DNA of 64,000 bases from positions 1 through 64,000 of the forward strand of contig CAKZON010000045.1 in NCBI GenBank assembly GCA_937136425.1, read 5' to 3'. The translations under genes were made by a program, and so were the position numbers. Shown one piece after another: positions 15,568-20,705 of this stretch. Under the pieces are notes generated by a model, which saw only the letters and a list, made by a program, of their open reading frames with translations, had not been told where the DNA came from and searched no databases. Source of the DNA: an uncultured Crocinitomix sp. GTDB lineage: Bacteria > Bacteroidota > Bacteroidia > Flavobacteriales_D > Crocinitomicaceae. Positions within the stretch are counted from its first letter, which is position 1; each line of letters starts with the position of its first letter.

Positions 15568-16818
15568 ATGAAAAATACATTTTGGATTCTTGGAATATTT
15601 ATAATATTCAGTTCTTGTAAAGATAAAATTCAGCAAAAGTACATGGCGAATAGTCCCGTTTACACGGATTATGAAACATTTAGAAATTCTGGTGGTTTTG
15701 AGGCCGCACGATCAATAGAGCAACAAGGTAATATCTATTTTAAAGACGATTTTTTGTTTATGGTTGAACCTGACAAAGGAATTCATTTTATAGATAATAC
15801 AAACCCATCTGCACCAGTTCAAACAGGGTTTTTAAATGTTTGGGGCGCTACTGGAATGTCCATTAAAGGAAACTATTTATACGCGAATAGTTTTATTGAT
15901 ATGGTGGTTTATGATATTAGTTCATTTGCGAGTCCAGTTTTGGTTGAGCGATTAGAAGATGTTTTTCCTGGAGCTTTGCCGCATTCTGAAAAAAACTATC
16001 CTTATAGCACAATTGACAAATCTAAAGGTGTTGTTACTTCATGGACAGTAGAACAGGTTACTGAAGATGTCGCCAATTTCCAACCTACATGGGTGGATTG
16101 TTTTACTTGCGGAGTAGGTTTTGAAAGTTCATTTGTATCTGAATCTGGTGGTGGAAGTACGGGCATTTCAGGTTCAATTAGTTTGTTCACCATTATTGAT
16201 GATTATTTATATGTTGTTGAAAATGGAAGTAAATTACATCCGTTTGAAATTTCTAATCCTGCTTCGCCAACGGTTAATGAGGCTGTAGGTATTTGGGGAA
16301 ATGTAGAAACTCTTTTTCCTTATGAAAATTACATTTTTATGGGAACACCAACTGGAATGATTGTTTATGAAACGTCTAATCCGGTTGTGCCAACCTATGT
16401 TTCATCATTAAGTCATGCTCGAGGGTGCGATCCAGTAGTAGTGCAAGACGATTATGCATATGTTACAGTGCGCTCTGGTGGACCTTGTGGTGGTGATATA
16501 AATCAATTGGATGTAATTGATATTTCAACTATTACAACTCCAGTACTGAAAGGATCTTTCAATATGAAAAATCCACATGGTTTGGGAATTGACGGAGCAA
16601 GCTTATTTATTTGTGATGGAGAGGATGGATTAAAAGTTTTTGATGCAACTAATCCTGAAACTGCTGGAAATAACAAAATTCATCAGTTTAAAAACATCCA
16701 AGCAACAGATATTATTCCAGTTAATAACATAGCAATTGTAATTGGTGAAGATGGTATTTTTCAATATGACTATTCTGACTTGAGTGATATTACATTATTA
16801 AGTTCATTAAATTTTTAG
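15568..16818 (+). CDS. LVIVD-repeat beta-propeller lipoprotein
   Basis: 416 residues from the ATG at 15568. An upstream in-frame ATG at 15511 would bury the lipoprotein signal MKNTFWILGIFIIFSSC (lipobox FSSC). The mature part contains repeated LVIVD-type blades: FIDNTNPSAPVQTGFLNV, VVYDISSFASPVLVERL, VYETSNPVVPTYVSSL, LDVIDISTITTPVLKGSF, VFDATNPETAG. These repeats fold as a beta-propeller and are common in envelope proteins of unknown substrate. The next lipoprotein gene starts 4 bases after its stop, so the two are co-transcribed. Confidence 0.88.
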   Translation: MKNTFWILGIFIIFSSCKDKIQQKYMANSPVYTDYETFRNSGGFEAARSIEQQGNIYFKDDFLFMVEPDKGIHFIDNTNPSAPVQTGFLNVWGATGMSIKGNYLYANSFIDMVVYDISSFASPVLVERLEDVFPGALPHSEKNYPYSTIDKSKGVVTSWTVEQVTEDVANFQPTWVDCFTCGVGFESSFVSESGGGSTGISGSISLFTIIDDYLYVVENGSKLHPFEISNPASPTVNEAVGIWGNVETLFPYENYIFMGTPTGMIVYETSNPVVPTYVSSLSHARGCDPVVVQDDYAYVTVRSGGPCGGDINQLDVIDISTITTPVLKGSFNMKNPHGLGIDGASLFICDGEDGLKVFDATNPETAGNNKIHQFKNIQATDIIPVNNIAIVIGEDGIFQYDYSDLSDITLLSSLNF

Positions 16819-16822
16819 AGAT

Positions 16823-17251
16823 ATGAAATCTAGAAAATTTTCAAAAAATGTGATAAAGGTGGCAAGTGTATTAATGCTTGTGTTCATCACAATTGCTTGT
16901 AACAAGCGCGCAGAAAGAAAACTTGAAAATACTACTTGGATTGGTGTAGAAAGAACAGTTGAGTTTAATGGTGAAGAGGAGACGTTGGATGAGTTTAACC
17001 ATATACTTCATTTTAGAGATGATGGCACTTTTTACAGAACATATGAAAACGGAACATGGGAAGTTAAAGATGAGAAATTAGTTGTTACTTCTTATGATGG
17101 GAATTGTGTACGTAGTTATAAAATTGTCAAAATTTCAAGTAAAGAGTTGATTTTAGAAGGAAGACAATCACCAGCACTGCCGTTTGTGGGATGTGTAGAT
17201 GGGGATGAAAATGATGCGAAAATTACAGAAATTTATGAACGTTCCAAGTAA
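16823..17251 (+). CDS. Lipocalin-like lipoprotein
   Basis: 142 residues. Signal and lipobox ITIAC at about 22-26. The mature part (KLENTTWIGVERTVEFNGEEE, FRDDGTFYRTYENGTWEVKDEKLVV) shows the W-x-beta-strand pattern with the GTWEV motif of lipocalin-like lipoproteins. It is immediately downstream of the LVIVD lipoprotein and upstream of a beta-barrel gene that starts 4 bases after its stop, consistent with one envelope operon spanning 15568-18718. Ligand unknown. Confidence 0.75.
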   Translation: MKSRKFSKNVIKVASVLMLVFITIACNKRAERKLENTTWIGVERTVEFNGEEETLDEFNHILHFRDDGTFYRTYENGTWEVKDEKLVVTSYDGNCVRSYKIVKISSKELILEGRQSPALPFVGCVDGDENDAKITEIYERSK

Positions 17252-17255
17252 TCAA

Positions 17256-17894
17256 ATGAAGGTTGTTTTGATTTTATGTCTGCTTATTTTTGGCAGTATT
17301 AATAGCCAAGCACAGGTTGATAATGTTGAATATGGTATTCAATTTCGATCGGGTCCTTCTTTTCGAAAATTTGCAAATGAATTACCCGTGTCAGAATATA
17401 CTGGGTTTAATTTGGGAGCAGATATTTTGAGTATGCGCTATGATTTAGACTTTGCAGCAAGGTTAAGTTCTAAATGGACACTATTTGCAGGAATGGGTTA
17501 TTCTAGTCGAAATTATTTAGGAACATATTACTGCCATGTTTGTGATTTTGTGGGGTTTCCTTTTGGATCTGAAAGATTAGAATTTAAGTACTTAGATGTG
17601 CCAATTTTTGCAAGATATCGAATCGTCGATCAAAAATTAGGTTGGCACATTGAGTTTGGAGCAGAAACTAGTTTTGCATTAAATAAGGTGGATTCACGTT
17701 ATGAATCAGATTTAAGATTGAATACGTATAGCGTGAATGCATTTGCTGGAACGGGGTTAGATTATAACTTAAATAACCGAATCAATTTTAATGCAACTTG
17801 TAGTTATAGAAAACTGCTTTTTTCAAATACAGCATATACGTTTCAAGCGTTAGAAGTTAAGGCAGGAATAATTTATTATTTCAATCAACTTTAG
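17256..17894 (+). CDS. Outer-membrane beta-barrel protein (PorT/OmpW-like class)
   Basis: 212 residues from the ATG at 17256. The reading frame is open further upstream, but the start at 17256 gives a clean signal peptide (MKVVLILCLLIFGSINSQAQ). The mature protein alternates hydrophobic and polar residues with aromatic strand ends (FAARLSSKWTLFAGMGYSSRNY, FKYLDVPIFARYRI, WHIEFGAETSFALN) and ends KAGIIYYF, typical of 8- to 10-strand outer-membrane barrels. The specific function is unknown. Confidence 0.8.
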   Translation: MKVVLILCLLIFGSINSQAQVDNVEYGIQFRSGPSFRKFANELPVSEYTGFNLGADILSMRYDLDFAARLSSKWTLFAGMGYSSRNYLGTYYCHVCDFVGFPFGSERLEFKYLDVPIFARYRIVDQKLGWHIEFGAETSFALNKVDSRYESDLRLNTYSVNAFAGTGLDYNLNNRINFNATCSYRKLLFSNTAYTFQALEVKAGIIYYFNQL

Positions 17895-17909: not shown

Positions 17910-18473
17910 ATGATAAAAGTAAAAATGATATTAATAGGCTTATTATTAAGCCAATTGAGTTTTGCTCAAAATAGTACAAATGAACTAAAAGAAGATTTAT
18001 CCGTTAGTTCAAATTCACCAGTGGTCAGTGGTTTTTATAATCGGATAAACGTTGGAGTGTTGGGAGGCAGTGATGCCTCTCCATCCTTCAACATTGTTAA
18101 TGGTTATAGATTTGATGAACGTTGGAGTGCAGGATTTGGGTTAGGTACGGAAGCTTTTTTTGGGAGAACATATATTCCAACATTTTTAGAAGGAAACTAT
18201 AATATTCTAAAAAGATCTACAACGCCGTGGTTGAGTATAATGGCAGGTTATGAAATGCCAATTGAGAGTTGGGGAGATGTAAAAGGTGGTTTTACTTGCG
18301 GAGGAAAAGTGGGCTTTAGTTATTTTATTGGTAAACACGTTGGAATTTCAACTTCACTTGGTTATCGTTATGCATATTTGCGTGACAAGTCCAATTGGTG
18401 GGGATGGGAAGATTTTATTACAATAAGTCAAGTTAATAGATTTGAGTTTAGAGTGGGAATGGTTTTTAAATAG
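17910..18473 (+). CDS. Outer-membrane beta-barrel protein
   Basis: 187 residues with signal peptide MIKVKMILIGLLLSQLSFAQ. Barrel-like strands follow (FYNRINVGVLGGS, RWSAGFGLGTEAFFG, PWLSIMAGYEMP, GISTSLGYRYAYL), with an aromatic-rich C-terminal strand FEFRVGMVFK. It is in line with the preceding barrel gene (15-base gap) and the following Kunitz-like lipoprotein (8-base gap). Function unknown. Confidence 0.78.
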   Translation: MIKVKMILIGLLLSQLSFAQNSTNELKEDLSVSSNSPVVSGFYNRINVGVLGGSDASPSFNIVNGYRFDERWSAGFGLGTEAFFGRTYIPTFLEGNYNILKRSTTPWLSIMAGYEMPIESWGDVKGGFTCGGKVGFSYFIGKHVGISTSLGYRYAYLRDKSNWWGWEDFITISQVNRFEFRVGMVFK

Positions 18474-18481
18474 AGAGATAG

Positions 18482-18718
18482 ATGAAGATTTTTTATGGAA
18501 TAGTATTGTTGATGGTTTTGAGTTGTGGAAAAAACTGTGTAGAACCACAGAACACGGCGTGTATGGATACACCACCAACAGATGAACTTTGCGAAGCATA
18601 TTTCAACAGATGGTTTTATAACAATGAAACAGAAAAATGTGAGTTAATAGGGTATAGCGGTTGCAATCAATATGGATTTGCAACTGAAGAAGAGTGTGAA
18701 TCTTGTAAGTGTGATTAG
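18482..18718 (+). CDS. Kunitz/BPTI-like lipoprotein
   Basis: 78 residues. The signal MKIFYGIVLLMVLSC has lipobox VLSC with Cys15 as lipidation site. The mature part carries a Kunitz-type pattern: C27, C37, C53, C61, C72 and C75 or C77. The C37-to-C53 (15 residues) and C53-to-C61 (7 residues) spacings equal those of BPTI, and E-A-Y-F-N-R-W-F-Y-N follows C37 just as K-A-R-I-I-R-Y-F-Y-N follows Cys14 in BPTI. The C4-C5 interval is two residues shorter than usual, and C19 plus an extra C-terminal Cys could form a further disulfide. The P1 position is Glu38. It is inferred to be a periplasmic or surface serine-protease inhibitor; activity is not shown. Confidence 0.72.
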   Translation: MKIFYGIVLLMVLSCGKNCVEPQNTACMDTPPTDELCEAYFNRWFYNNETEKCELIGYSGCNQYGFATEEECESCKCD

Positions 18719-18763: not shown

Positions 18764-19348
18764 ATTTCGAAATATAAAACATATCCTGACCAAGAATTAG
18801 TAGCCGCCTGTATCGATCAAAATCGACAAGCACAGCAAGAGTTTTACCTAAGATTTGTGCATATGATGAAAGGGATTTGTTTGCGTTATGCAGCCAATGA
18901 GGCTGAAGCTGAAGACATTCTGCAAGAAGCTTTTATACAATCTTTCAGAAAATTAGATACCTATAATGGAAAAGGAGCATTGGGAGGATGGTTGCGAAAA
19001 ATAACGGTAAATAAAGCTTTAGAGCAATACCGCAAAAATAAATCTATTCGAAATTTAAAGGAATCATTTGCTAAAACAGATTTACAAACAACGGTAGATG
19101 ATACGGTGTTTAGTCAATTGGAGTTGGATGATTTAGTACTTAAAATACAACAGTTGCCAAGTGGGTATCGAACCATATTTAATTTATATGCAATAGAAGG
19201 ATATACACATGTAGAAATAGGGGAACTAATTGGAATTGCGGTTGGAACTTCAAAATCACAATACAGCCGTGCACGCAAAATGTTAGCGGATATGATTTTA
19301 ACAGAGGGAGAAAATGAAAATATAAGATTGGCTTATGCAAAACAATGA
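18764..19348 (+). CDS. ECF-type RNA polymerase sigma factor, probable ATT start
   Basis: The frame encodes sigma region 2 (YPDQELVAACIDQNRQAQQEFY..., ANEAEAEDILQEAFIQSFRKL) and region 4 (LPSGYRTIFNLYAIEGYTHVEIGELIGIAVGTSKSQYSRARKML). The first canonical start in frame, a GTG at 18857, would delete the first helix of region 2. Conserved coding extends back to about 18764, where an ATT precedes SKYKTYPDQELV, the expected N-terminus of Bacteroidota ECF factors. In-frame upstream there is only an ATG at 18734 cut off by TAG at 18740. With the ATT start the protein has 194 residues. It overlaps the downstream anti-sigma-like gene by 14 bases. Confidence 0.8.
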   Translation: MSKYKTYPDQELVAACIDQNRQAQQEFYLRFVHMMKGICLRYAANEAEAEDILQEAFIQSFRKLDTYNGKGALGGWLRKITVNKALEQYRKNKSIRNLKESFAKTDLQTTVDDTVFSQLELDDLVLKIQQLPSGYRTIFNLYAIEGYTHVEIGELIGIAVGTSKSQYSRARKMLADMILTEGENENIRLAYAKQ

Positions 19349-20705
19349 CACACGAGGAAGTTTAGGATCAAAATTTGAGAATTTTGGTGCGGCTCCAACT
19401 GAGGGGCTTTGGGGTTCTATTGCCGATTCATTAGAGGGGAAAAAGAAGCGCCGCGTTGCTATATGGTGGTGGTTGGGCGCTGCTGCGGTTACAATTGCTG
19501 GAGTAGGAATTGTATTGACAACAATGTCTAATGATGAATTTACAGCGGAGACAAGCATTTCAAATCCAACAAATAATGAAAACATAATTCAAACTGATCC
19601 AACCATGTTGGCAGAAGATAAGAATACAGTTGATTTTAATGAAAGAAAAGATGAAACTCTATTAGAGAGTAATGGAGCAAATAATGATCCTAATACTAAT
19701 TCAGAAAACTTAGAAACAGACCTAAATGAAAGTGCTCCAACAAATGGAAGCTTGACAGAAAGGGAGGTTGAGGTAGAGAAGCTTGATAAGGAACCTTTAA
19801 ATACATTTGAAAATAAGGGGGATGATTTGGTGGAAATGAATCCACCAAAAAACAATGATCATCAAGATGGTGATGTTGATCGAAAAGATCCAGTTGACAA
19901 AGAGGATATAATTAGTCCTGAAGTTTTAGTAAGTGCAGATCGATTAAATCAATTGCCCCTTAGGAAAATTGCATTTAATTATGGCGCAACTTCATTAACC
20001 CCAATTACTGCCCAAAAAATGCCGAAAAACAGATGGGAAATGGGCATTACCATAAATCGATTTAATTCTATACGTGGAGGGGCAAAATACCAAAATGCTG
20101 AACCTACTGTTGACACTTCAGGCTCAGAATATGATATATTGGAAAGTATTAATACTAATTATAACGTTAGGACAACTCGCCCAATTGGATTGAAGTTTTA
20201 TGCTGGTTATCAACTTTCGCGGCGTTTTAGAGTGGTGTCTGGTATTTCTGCTGAGTATACTTCATATCGTTATACCAAAAGTTTTGAAGATGCAGGAATA
20301 AATAGTGTTGCGCCATCTGCTGTAGTGGCTATTATTCCTGCTAAGCTAACAAGTGTTGGAATTCCAATAGGTTTGGAGTTTGATTTTATTAAACGAAGAA
20401 GATTTCAAATGGGAACAGGTGTTAGTTTGTTGAATGAGTTTCCATTTTTACAGACTTATCGTCCTGATTATGATGTGAATTATGTTGGTCCTCAAACGAA
20501 GGTTCGAAATTTTATTTCGGGATACAATATGGGGCTTAGTATGAATGTAAATGCAAGTGTATATCTAACGGATAAAATGCGCATTCAGGCAAGCCCTATT
20601 GTGCGTTATTATACAAGGCAAAAATCAACCACTACGCTTAATTTACAAAAGCGAGACCTTTGGTTTGGAGGTTCGGTTAGTATGATTTGGAAATTGGGGA
20701 AATAG
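19335..20705 (+). CDS. Membrane protein joining an anti-sigma-like N-terminus to an outer-membrane-type barrel
   Basis: 456 residues. A short cytoplasmic N-terminus (FENFGAAPTEGLWGSIADSLEGKKKRR) precedes a single transmembrane segment (about 40-62, AIWWWLGAAAVTIAGVGIVL). An Asn/Glu/Asp-rich linker follows (about 65-200), then a C-terminal portion (about 205-456) with barrel-like strands (RWEMGITINRFNSIRGG, GLKFYAGYQLSRRFRVVSGISAEY, ending WFGGSVSMIWKLGK). Overlap with the sigma gene supports an anti-sigma role, as in other Bacteroidota sigma/regulator pairs. Whether one chain can span from the inner to the outer membrane is open; the 'barrel' may instead be a periplasmic beta domain. Confidence 0.75.
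   Translation: MQNNDTRGSLGSKFENFGAAPTEGLWGSIADSLEGKKKRRVAIWWWLGAAAVTIAGVGIVLTTMSNDEFTAETSISNPTNNENIIQTDPTMLAEDKNTVDFNERKDETLLESNGANNDPNTNSENLETDLNESAPTNGSLTEREVEVEKLDKEPLNTFENKGDDLVEMNPPKNNDHQDGDVDRKDPVDKEDIISPEVLVSADRLNQLPLRKIAFNYGATSLTPITAQKMPKNRWEMGITINRFNSIRGGAKYQNAEPTVDTSGSEYDILESINTNYNVRTTRPIGLKFYAGYQLSRRFRVVSGISAEYTSYRYTKSFEDAGINSVAPSAVVAIIPAKLTSVGIPIGLEFDFIKRRRFQMGTGVSLLNEFPFLQTYRPDYDVNYVGPQTKVRNFISGYNMGLSMNVNASVYLTDKMRIQASPIVRYYTRQKSTTTLNLQKRDLWFGGSVSMIWKLGK

Follow-up and report, generated by a model that had tools for sequence, protein, structure and literature searches.

Kunitz inhibitors have, to our knowledge, been studied almost entirely in animals. A short gene in an uncultured Crocinitomix sp. 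of the Bacteroidota opens the question of whether free-living bacteria also turn the Kunitz fold against proteases and, if so, against which. The gene (18482..18718, + strand) lies in the window, that is, the whole 64,000-nucleotide stretch of DNA that was analyzed, and encodes a protein of 78 residues. A first-pass annotation of the sequence had described this product as a Kunitz/BPTI-like lipoprotein of an envelope operon, with a glutamate at the predicted P1 site that would point to a Glu-specific protease. The subfamily to which it belongs, with its lipid anchor, altered loop, probable fourth disulfide, and variable P1, offers a compact test system. Its significance is tempered by the existing Pfam model, which already recognizes the family, and by a target preference that is still only a candidate.

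Family membership and cysteine framework

A short signal peptide opens the protein and ends in the lipobox LMVLSC15; after a short linker, which contains Cys19, the domain extends from Cys27 to Cys77. The signal peptide and lipid-modified Cys15 (18482..18526, +) are predicted by reading of the sequence, in agreement with the lipoprotein signal annotated earlier, and an alignment of relatives with 17 rows retains Cys15 in at least 90% of them. Cysteines occupy positions 15 (lipobox), 19, 27, 37, 53, 61, 72, 75, and 77. In BPTI numbering, which we take as the frame for Kunitz equivalents (Cys 5-14-30-38-51-55), the six matching residues are C27, C37, C53, C61, C72, and either C75 or C77. Kunitz disulfides join cysteines 1-6, 2-4, and 3-5, which here would be C27 with C75 or C77, C37-C61, and C53-C72. 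The intervals are 15 (C37-C53), 7 (C53-C61), and 10 residues (C61-C72), the last being two short of BPTI, and the block R43-W-F-Y-N47 is present. On re-reading of the sequence, the open reading frame, its coordinates, the cysteine positions, the 15- and 7-residue intervals, and the shortened C4-C5 interval of the first-pass annotation all proved correct, as did its two extra cysteines, namely, Cys19 (18536..18538, +) ahead of C1 and a third cysteine at the C-terminus. At the predicted P1 site, which was located by alignment with Kunitz proteins, Glu38 is encoded by GAA (18593..18595, +).

The assignment to the Kunitz family is likewise upheld. In the Pfam-A profile search that the annotation had proposed as a check, PF00014 (Kunitz_BPTI, which we take to correspond to MEROPS I2) matched residues 27-74 at 32.1 bits (E 1.4e-7), above the gathering cut-off of 21, so that the low score named by the annotation as a refutation did not arise; alignment with the family extends the domain to Cys77 (residues 27-77; 18560..18712, +). 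The window protein matched nothing else in Pfam and nothing in NCBIfam. The same PF00014 model, run against the whole genome in six frames, recovered the Kunitz gene at E 1.2e-6; a second, sub-threshold match (C60:771-839, 15.8 bits) was rejected because it falls in a spurious frame that a different long open frame encloses. Among solved structures, the closest chains in sequence belong to the Kunitz inhibitors SmCI (4.9e-13), boophilin, and TFPI. A profile built from 17 relatives retrieved SmCI from the PDB at 2.8e-18, together with TFPI and boophilin, and all 60 PDB rows shown for this profile are Kunitz-containing molecules by name.

Structure prediction adds little to this assignment. AlphaFold, supplied with two sequences only (the window protein and L003, where L and G numbers are our handles for loci and genomes), reached a pLDDT of 50.6 and 51.0 in two runs. 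The first low-confidence model contains a Kunitz-like hairpin (residues 28-33 and 38-43) and a C-terminal helix (55-60), whereas the second, also of low confidence, is all-helical and disagrees with it. Foldseek ranked four Kunitz chains at the top for the first model, with TM scores of at most 0.32. Because these two-sequence models are weak and discordant, the Foldseek ranking is given no weight and the assignment of the Kunitz fold rests on sequence evidence. At that level, the window protein is confirmed as a bacterial protein that bears the Kunitz/BPTI signature and is predicted to be membrane-anchored.

Two bacterial subfamilies and a predicted lipid anchor

With identical proteins counted once, 70 distinct proteins fitted the Kunitz cysteine pattern; six open reading frames that matched neither of its two variants were left out. 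Two of those six, L042 and L109 (G406, same phylum), belong to a single, apparently broken Kunitz gene that is divided between two reading frames. Subfamily A comprises 38 proteins, including that of the window, with 10 residues between C4 and C5, and subfamily B comprises 32 proteins with 11 residues in this interval and a GGVVPF-like motif. Subfamily A is monophyletic with a support of 1.0 in a tree of A and B, in which only bacterial sequences were compared. The GGVVPF loci L043-L070 carry their Kunitz domain N-terminally in open frames of approximately 249-405 aa, with P1 mostly Glu or Phe, and L054 encodes, in addition, a type IX sorting tail and an FBA domain.

Column counts and site rates were taken from 37 of the 38 subfamily A domains, one of different length having been dropped. 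The residue at P1' is Ala in 36/37 (Ala39 in the window protein), the Gly37 equivalent is kept in 37/37 (Gly60 in the window protein), and the equivalents of Cys14 and Cys38 are invariant. Inhibitory Kunitz domains normally keep Gly12 and Gly36 as well, two residues that the region near the binding loop usually requires. At the Gly12 equivalent, 3/37 subfamily A domains have Gly and the window protein has Glu; at the Gly36 equivalent, 32/37 have Ser, the window protein among them, and 3/37 have Gly. The loop that follows the Cys38 equivalent is two residues short throughout the subfamily.

Additional cysteines occur at both ends of the domain. A third C-terminal cysteine (CxxCxC or close to it) ends all 38 subfamily A proteins, and an extra cysteine lies between the lipid-modified cysteine, or the signal, and C1 in 37/38, the exception being L022. 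Six subfamily B proteins with a third C-terminal cysteine, all of them short, also carry the extra N-terminal one. The 26 B proteins that lack the third cysteine have their upstream cysteines in signal peptides or lipoboxes by inspection, except possibly L039. This joint occurrence suggests a fourth disulfide in the Kunitz lipoproteins that would tie the N-terminus, near the anchor, to the C-terminus; in the window protein, the putative partner of Cys19 is Cys75 or Cys77.

A lipobox was called by script in 34 of the 38 subfamily A proteins, which are short, and is visible by eye in three of the remaining four. In Capnocytophaga, lipoproteins are exported to the surface by the signal C-X-K-(D/E)2, and such signals vary between species (PMC5080379). 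The mature N-terminus of the window protein, CGKNC, fits in part, with Lys at +3 and no acidic pair. Among the 34 proteins with a called lipobox, +3 is Lys or Arg in 32, +4 is Asp or Glu in 20, and +5 is Cys in 32. The +3 and +4 residues of the family thus appear to resemble only part of the Capnocytophaga signal, and the surface anchoring proposed in the first-pass annotation is at most putative.

Variation and selection at the P1 position

Across subfamily A (n = 38) P1 is Gln in 15, Met in 9, Leu in 5, Ala in 4, Glu in 2, and Phe, His, and Tyr in one each, and never Lys or Arg; across subfamily B (n = 32) it is Glu in 17, Phe in 10, Lys in 2, and Arg, Leu, and Asn in one each. Within subfamily A, only two proteins have Glu, that of the window and that of its congener L007, and their close relatives in the tree have Gln or Leu. 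A clade of nine similar proteins has Met in six, Gln in two, and His in one. The proteins of L034 and L037 differ at one of 49 residues, and that residue is P1 (Gln and Met, respectively); two nucleotide changes separate the codons (CAG and ATG), and the DNA is 91.8% identical.

Purifying selection acts on the full Kunitz domain: in one clade of relatives, the median dN/dS is 0.04 for the 17 of 36 pairs that had a usable dS (the other 19 were left out). Positive selection at P1 was considered and set aside: by parsimony the position underwent 14 changes, the fourth most of 49 columns (median 8), but under a site-rate model it ranked 18 of 49, with no exceptional rate. With parsimony high and the site rate middling, we call P1 variable rather than positively selected. 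Our conclusion is that P1 can vary freely and is not fixed on Glu, which is no trait of the family.

An optional passenger of an ECF-sigma envelope operon

The location of the gene in an envelope operon, as annotated earlier, is borne out by its neighbors, all on the + strand. The first operon gene encodes an LVIVD-repeat lipoprotein (15568..16818; PF08309, 46.2 bits) and is followed by genes for a Lipocalin_4-like lipoprotein (16823..17251; PF13648, 26.2 bits) with homologues in L121 and L128, an outer-membrane beta-barrel protein, OMP1 (17199..17894; PF13568, 39 bits), and a beta-barrel-like protein, OMP2 (17910..18473; sub-threshold PF13505, 19.9 bits). OMP2, a conserved neighbor of the LVIVD and sigma genes, ends 8 nt upstream of the Kunitz gene, and from the upstream genes through the Kunitz gene all gaps are at most 18 nt or the genes overlap. 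Downstream lie a gene for an ECF sigma factor (18764..19348; PF04542/PF08281) and a sigma-linked membrane protein gene (19335..20705), which follows sigma in L121-L127 as well; its product matches no Pfam family above cut-off and may be anti-sigma-like. This membrane protein also gave a weak PADLOC match (17.7 bits). No structured RNA was found in the window between 13000 and 22000. Matches to E. coli-type promoters numbered 28, near the shuffled level of 24.2, and are therefore uninformative.

Comparison with other loci indicates how loosely the Kunitz gene is held in this setting. After L076 and L109, in which the script called no Kunitz gene, were dropped from 42 neighborhoods, 40 remained. 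A sigma gene of one cluster lies within two genes after the Kunitz gene in 5/40 (the window, L073, L075, L077, and L105), and an LVIVD gene lies upstream of it in 4/40 (the window, L073, L077, and L108). Conversely, twelve LVIVD regions chosen from relatives (L121-L132) were compared, and seven of them (L121-L127) keep the order of LVIVD, OMP2, sigma, and membrane protein without a Kunitz gene. The slot between OMP2 and sigma, which the Kunitz gene occupies in the window, is empty in six of these seven and holds a DUF6970 gene in L126. The slot before OMP2 is empty in L125 and L127 and holds a lipocalin-like gene in L121 and genes for short lipoproteins with no Pfam match in L122, L123, L124, and L126. 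Gene order differs in L129, and sigma is absent from the stretch taken for L130-L132. DUF6970 genes also adjoin the Kunitz gene in L095 and L105 and, by gene cluster, in six more loci of the L095 clade, and Kunitz genes of other clades adjoin unrelated genes. Since the operon order is kept without the Kunitz gene and the neighbors elsewhere are unrelated, we regard the Kunitz gene as a passenger that the conserved ECF-sigma envelope operon can do without; their link exists in some lineages and is not general.

Several of these regions have peculiarities of their own. The Pfam-less short lipoproteins before OMP2 in L122-L124 have a D-x-R-C-P-x4-C-x-W-E motif in common. Two congeners have operons that look damaged: in L128 (G005), OMP2 is shortened and followed by an unrelated gene, with the Kunitz, sigma, and membrane protein genes absent, and in L130 (G006) the LVIVD gene has an internal TGA.

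The sigma gene is unusual in how it begins. Its frame contains no ATG, GTG, or TTG before the conserved start region, and the homology of its relatives begins at an ATT, the apparent start codon at 18764. Nine orthologues (the window, L073, L077, and L121-L126) have an Ile codon at this same place and no standard start; the codon is ATT in seven, ATC in L121, and ATA in L077. The gene of L075 also lacks a standard start, but the position of its codon differs; the exceptions are L127, with an upstream TTG, L129, with an ATG, and L105 (beside a Kunitz gene), with a Met. Among control ECF sigma genes from five genomes, 20/20 have a standard start upstream of the conserved region. A near-cognate start codon is known from infC, and a conserved near-cognate AUU-type start appears to be the simplest reading of these sigma genes as well. 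The sigma factor could, as such, be translation-limited.

Distribution in Bacteroidota

The first-pass annotation regarded bacterial Kunitz domains as few in number, which understates their frequency in this order. PF00014 scored above cut-off in 13/59 of the nearest genomes, 30/240 genomes of the family, 55/299 genomes of the order, and 6/395 genomes of a phylum-wide sample; the own genome is included each time, and the samples overlap. Within the genus, 2/9 genomes have the gene. In these searches the 14 control genomes gave zero matches; at a lax limit of E 10, 5/14 had a match, none over the cut-off. Within the order, Kunitz genes are thus fairly common and patchy. A tblastn search for carriage of the Kunitz protein by phages or plasmids returned no match, nor did a PADLOC search for defense systems match this protein.

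What might the protein do?

On balance, we lean toward a lipid-anchored, single-domain Kunitz inhibitor (MEROPS I2-like) that acts at the envelope on serine proteases of non-trypsin-like specificity, a reading that we hold with little firmness. The domain would be exported and acylated to the outer membrane, where the extra disulfide between Cys19 and Cys75 or Cys77 may pin it near its anchor. The loop C37-E38-A39-Y40-F41, joined to the second loop through a C37-C61 bridge, would enter the active site of a serine protease and presumably block it by tight, substrate-like inhibition. As subfamily A never has Lys or Arg at P1 and mostly has Gln, Met, Leu, or Ala there, the targets are likely non-trypsin-like and may be elastase-, chymotrypsin-, or subtilisin-like proteases, from neighbors or from the cell itself, with a preference that would shift between species. 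Possible targets are present inside the cell as well, given the five trypsin-family genes of its own genome. Such an inhibitor would serve to protect the envelope locally. In favor of inhibition we count the PF00014 match, the Kunitz inhibitors retrieved by the profile of relatives, the published precedent of inhibitory Kunitz peptides (PMC11511053), the retained P1' Ala, Gly37, and Cys14-Cys38 pair, purifying selection, the lipobox, and the P1 change between L034 and L037. Against it we count the lost Gly12 and Gly36 equivalents, the second loop two residues short, the unexceptional site rate of P1 (fourth by parsimony), the low-confidence and discordant structure models, and neighborhoods in which no consistent protease gene appears: none was seen in the 40, by Pfam on selected neighbors.

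The main rival, owing to the two replaced glycines near the binding loop and the shortened second loop, is a Kunitz-fold protein that inhibits no protease, its scaffold being used for binding or structure as a small module, rich in disulfides, of a lipoprotein of the outer membrane. The scaffold does have uses apart from proteases, as exemplified by Kunitz toxins that block channels. Such a module would also accommodate a P1 that varies without Lys or Arg and without an exceptional rate, and a gene that is one of several for optional small operon lipoproteins, none of them known inhibitors. It sits less easily with the P1' Ala, Gly37, and Cys14-Cys38 pair, kept almost without exception, and a variable P1 is also the pattern expected of inhibitors with changing targets. 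We regard it as a serious possibility that nonetheless falls short of probable. A dedicated inhibitor of Glu-specific (V8-like) proteases, as the first-pass annotation inferred, would explain the Glu at P1 in the window protein and L007 and recalls subfamily B, in which Glu is the commonest P1 (17/32). However, Glu occupies P1 in 2/38 of subfamily A, Gln or Leu stands there in close relatives, P1 can change between similar proteins with almost no change elsewhere in the domain, and no Glu-specific protease was identified, which makes the inference from one residue weak and this specialization quite improbable. Recent transfer from an animal, or contamination by one, is suggested by the animal origin of the nearest solved relatives. 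It is disfavored to the point of being very hard to credit, given that the gene is part of a bacterial operon within a contig of 93.8 kb and that the 38 proteins of its subfamily form one clade (support 1.0) in a tree of bacterial sequences with no animal sequence. More speculatively, and in our estimate unlikely, the operon may offer exchangeable slots for small cysteine-containing lipoproteins, with Kunitz, DUF6970, and other proteins swapped as protease shields or sensors under one sigma factor and P1 retuned in each lineage.

Comparison with known systems

In the literature searched, which covered few subscription journals, no description of subfamily A was found, the phrase "bacterial Kunitz" occurred only in PMC11511053, and the papers returned for Kunitz proteins and Bacteroidota were unrelated by title and abstract. 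That one report describes KABP peptides, inhibitory Kunitz domains of the protein F6W77 reported from an Acinetobacter baumannii genome (PMC11511053). The two systems have in common that their Kunitz domains are reported from bacterial genomes, and the KABP peptides were assayed as protease inhibitors. Unlike the window protein, F6W77 is described there as a secreted protein with five domains, P1 Arg or Leu, and the standard six-cysteine framework (PMC11511053).

Within the bacterial family, the GGVVPF-type subfamily B also matches the Kunitz model, and its six short members share the extra cysteines on both sides of the domain. It differs from subfamily A in its C4-C5 interval of 11 residues, in keeping the Gly12 and Gly36-Gly37 equivalents, and in a P1 that is mostly Glu or Phe; furthermore, many of its members span 249-405 aa as open frames, and one of them includes a type IX sorting domain. 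Compared with the Kunitz/BPTI proteins at large (SmCI, boophilin, TFPI, and BPTI), the window protein has the same six framework cysteines, 15- and 7-residue central intervals, RWFYN block, YxGC motif, and FxT...C helix start. It departs from them in a C4-C5 interval of 10 rather than 12 residues, in the replaced Gly12 and Gly36 equivalents, in the extra cysteines before C1 and at the C-terminus, and in its predicted lipid anchor and acidic P1. The PF00014 profile and the cysteine framework thus place it in a known kind of protein, of which the altered loop, the extra cysteine pair, the lipid anchor, and the P1 repertoire make it a variant.
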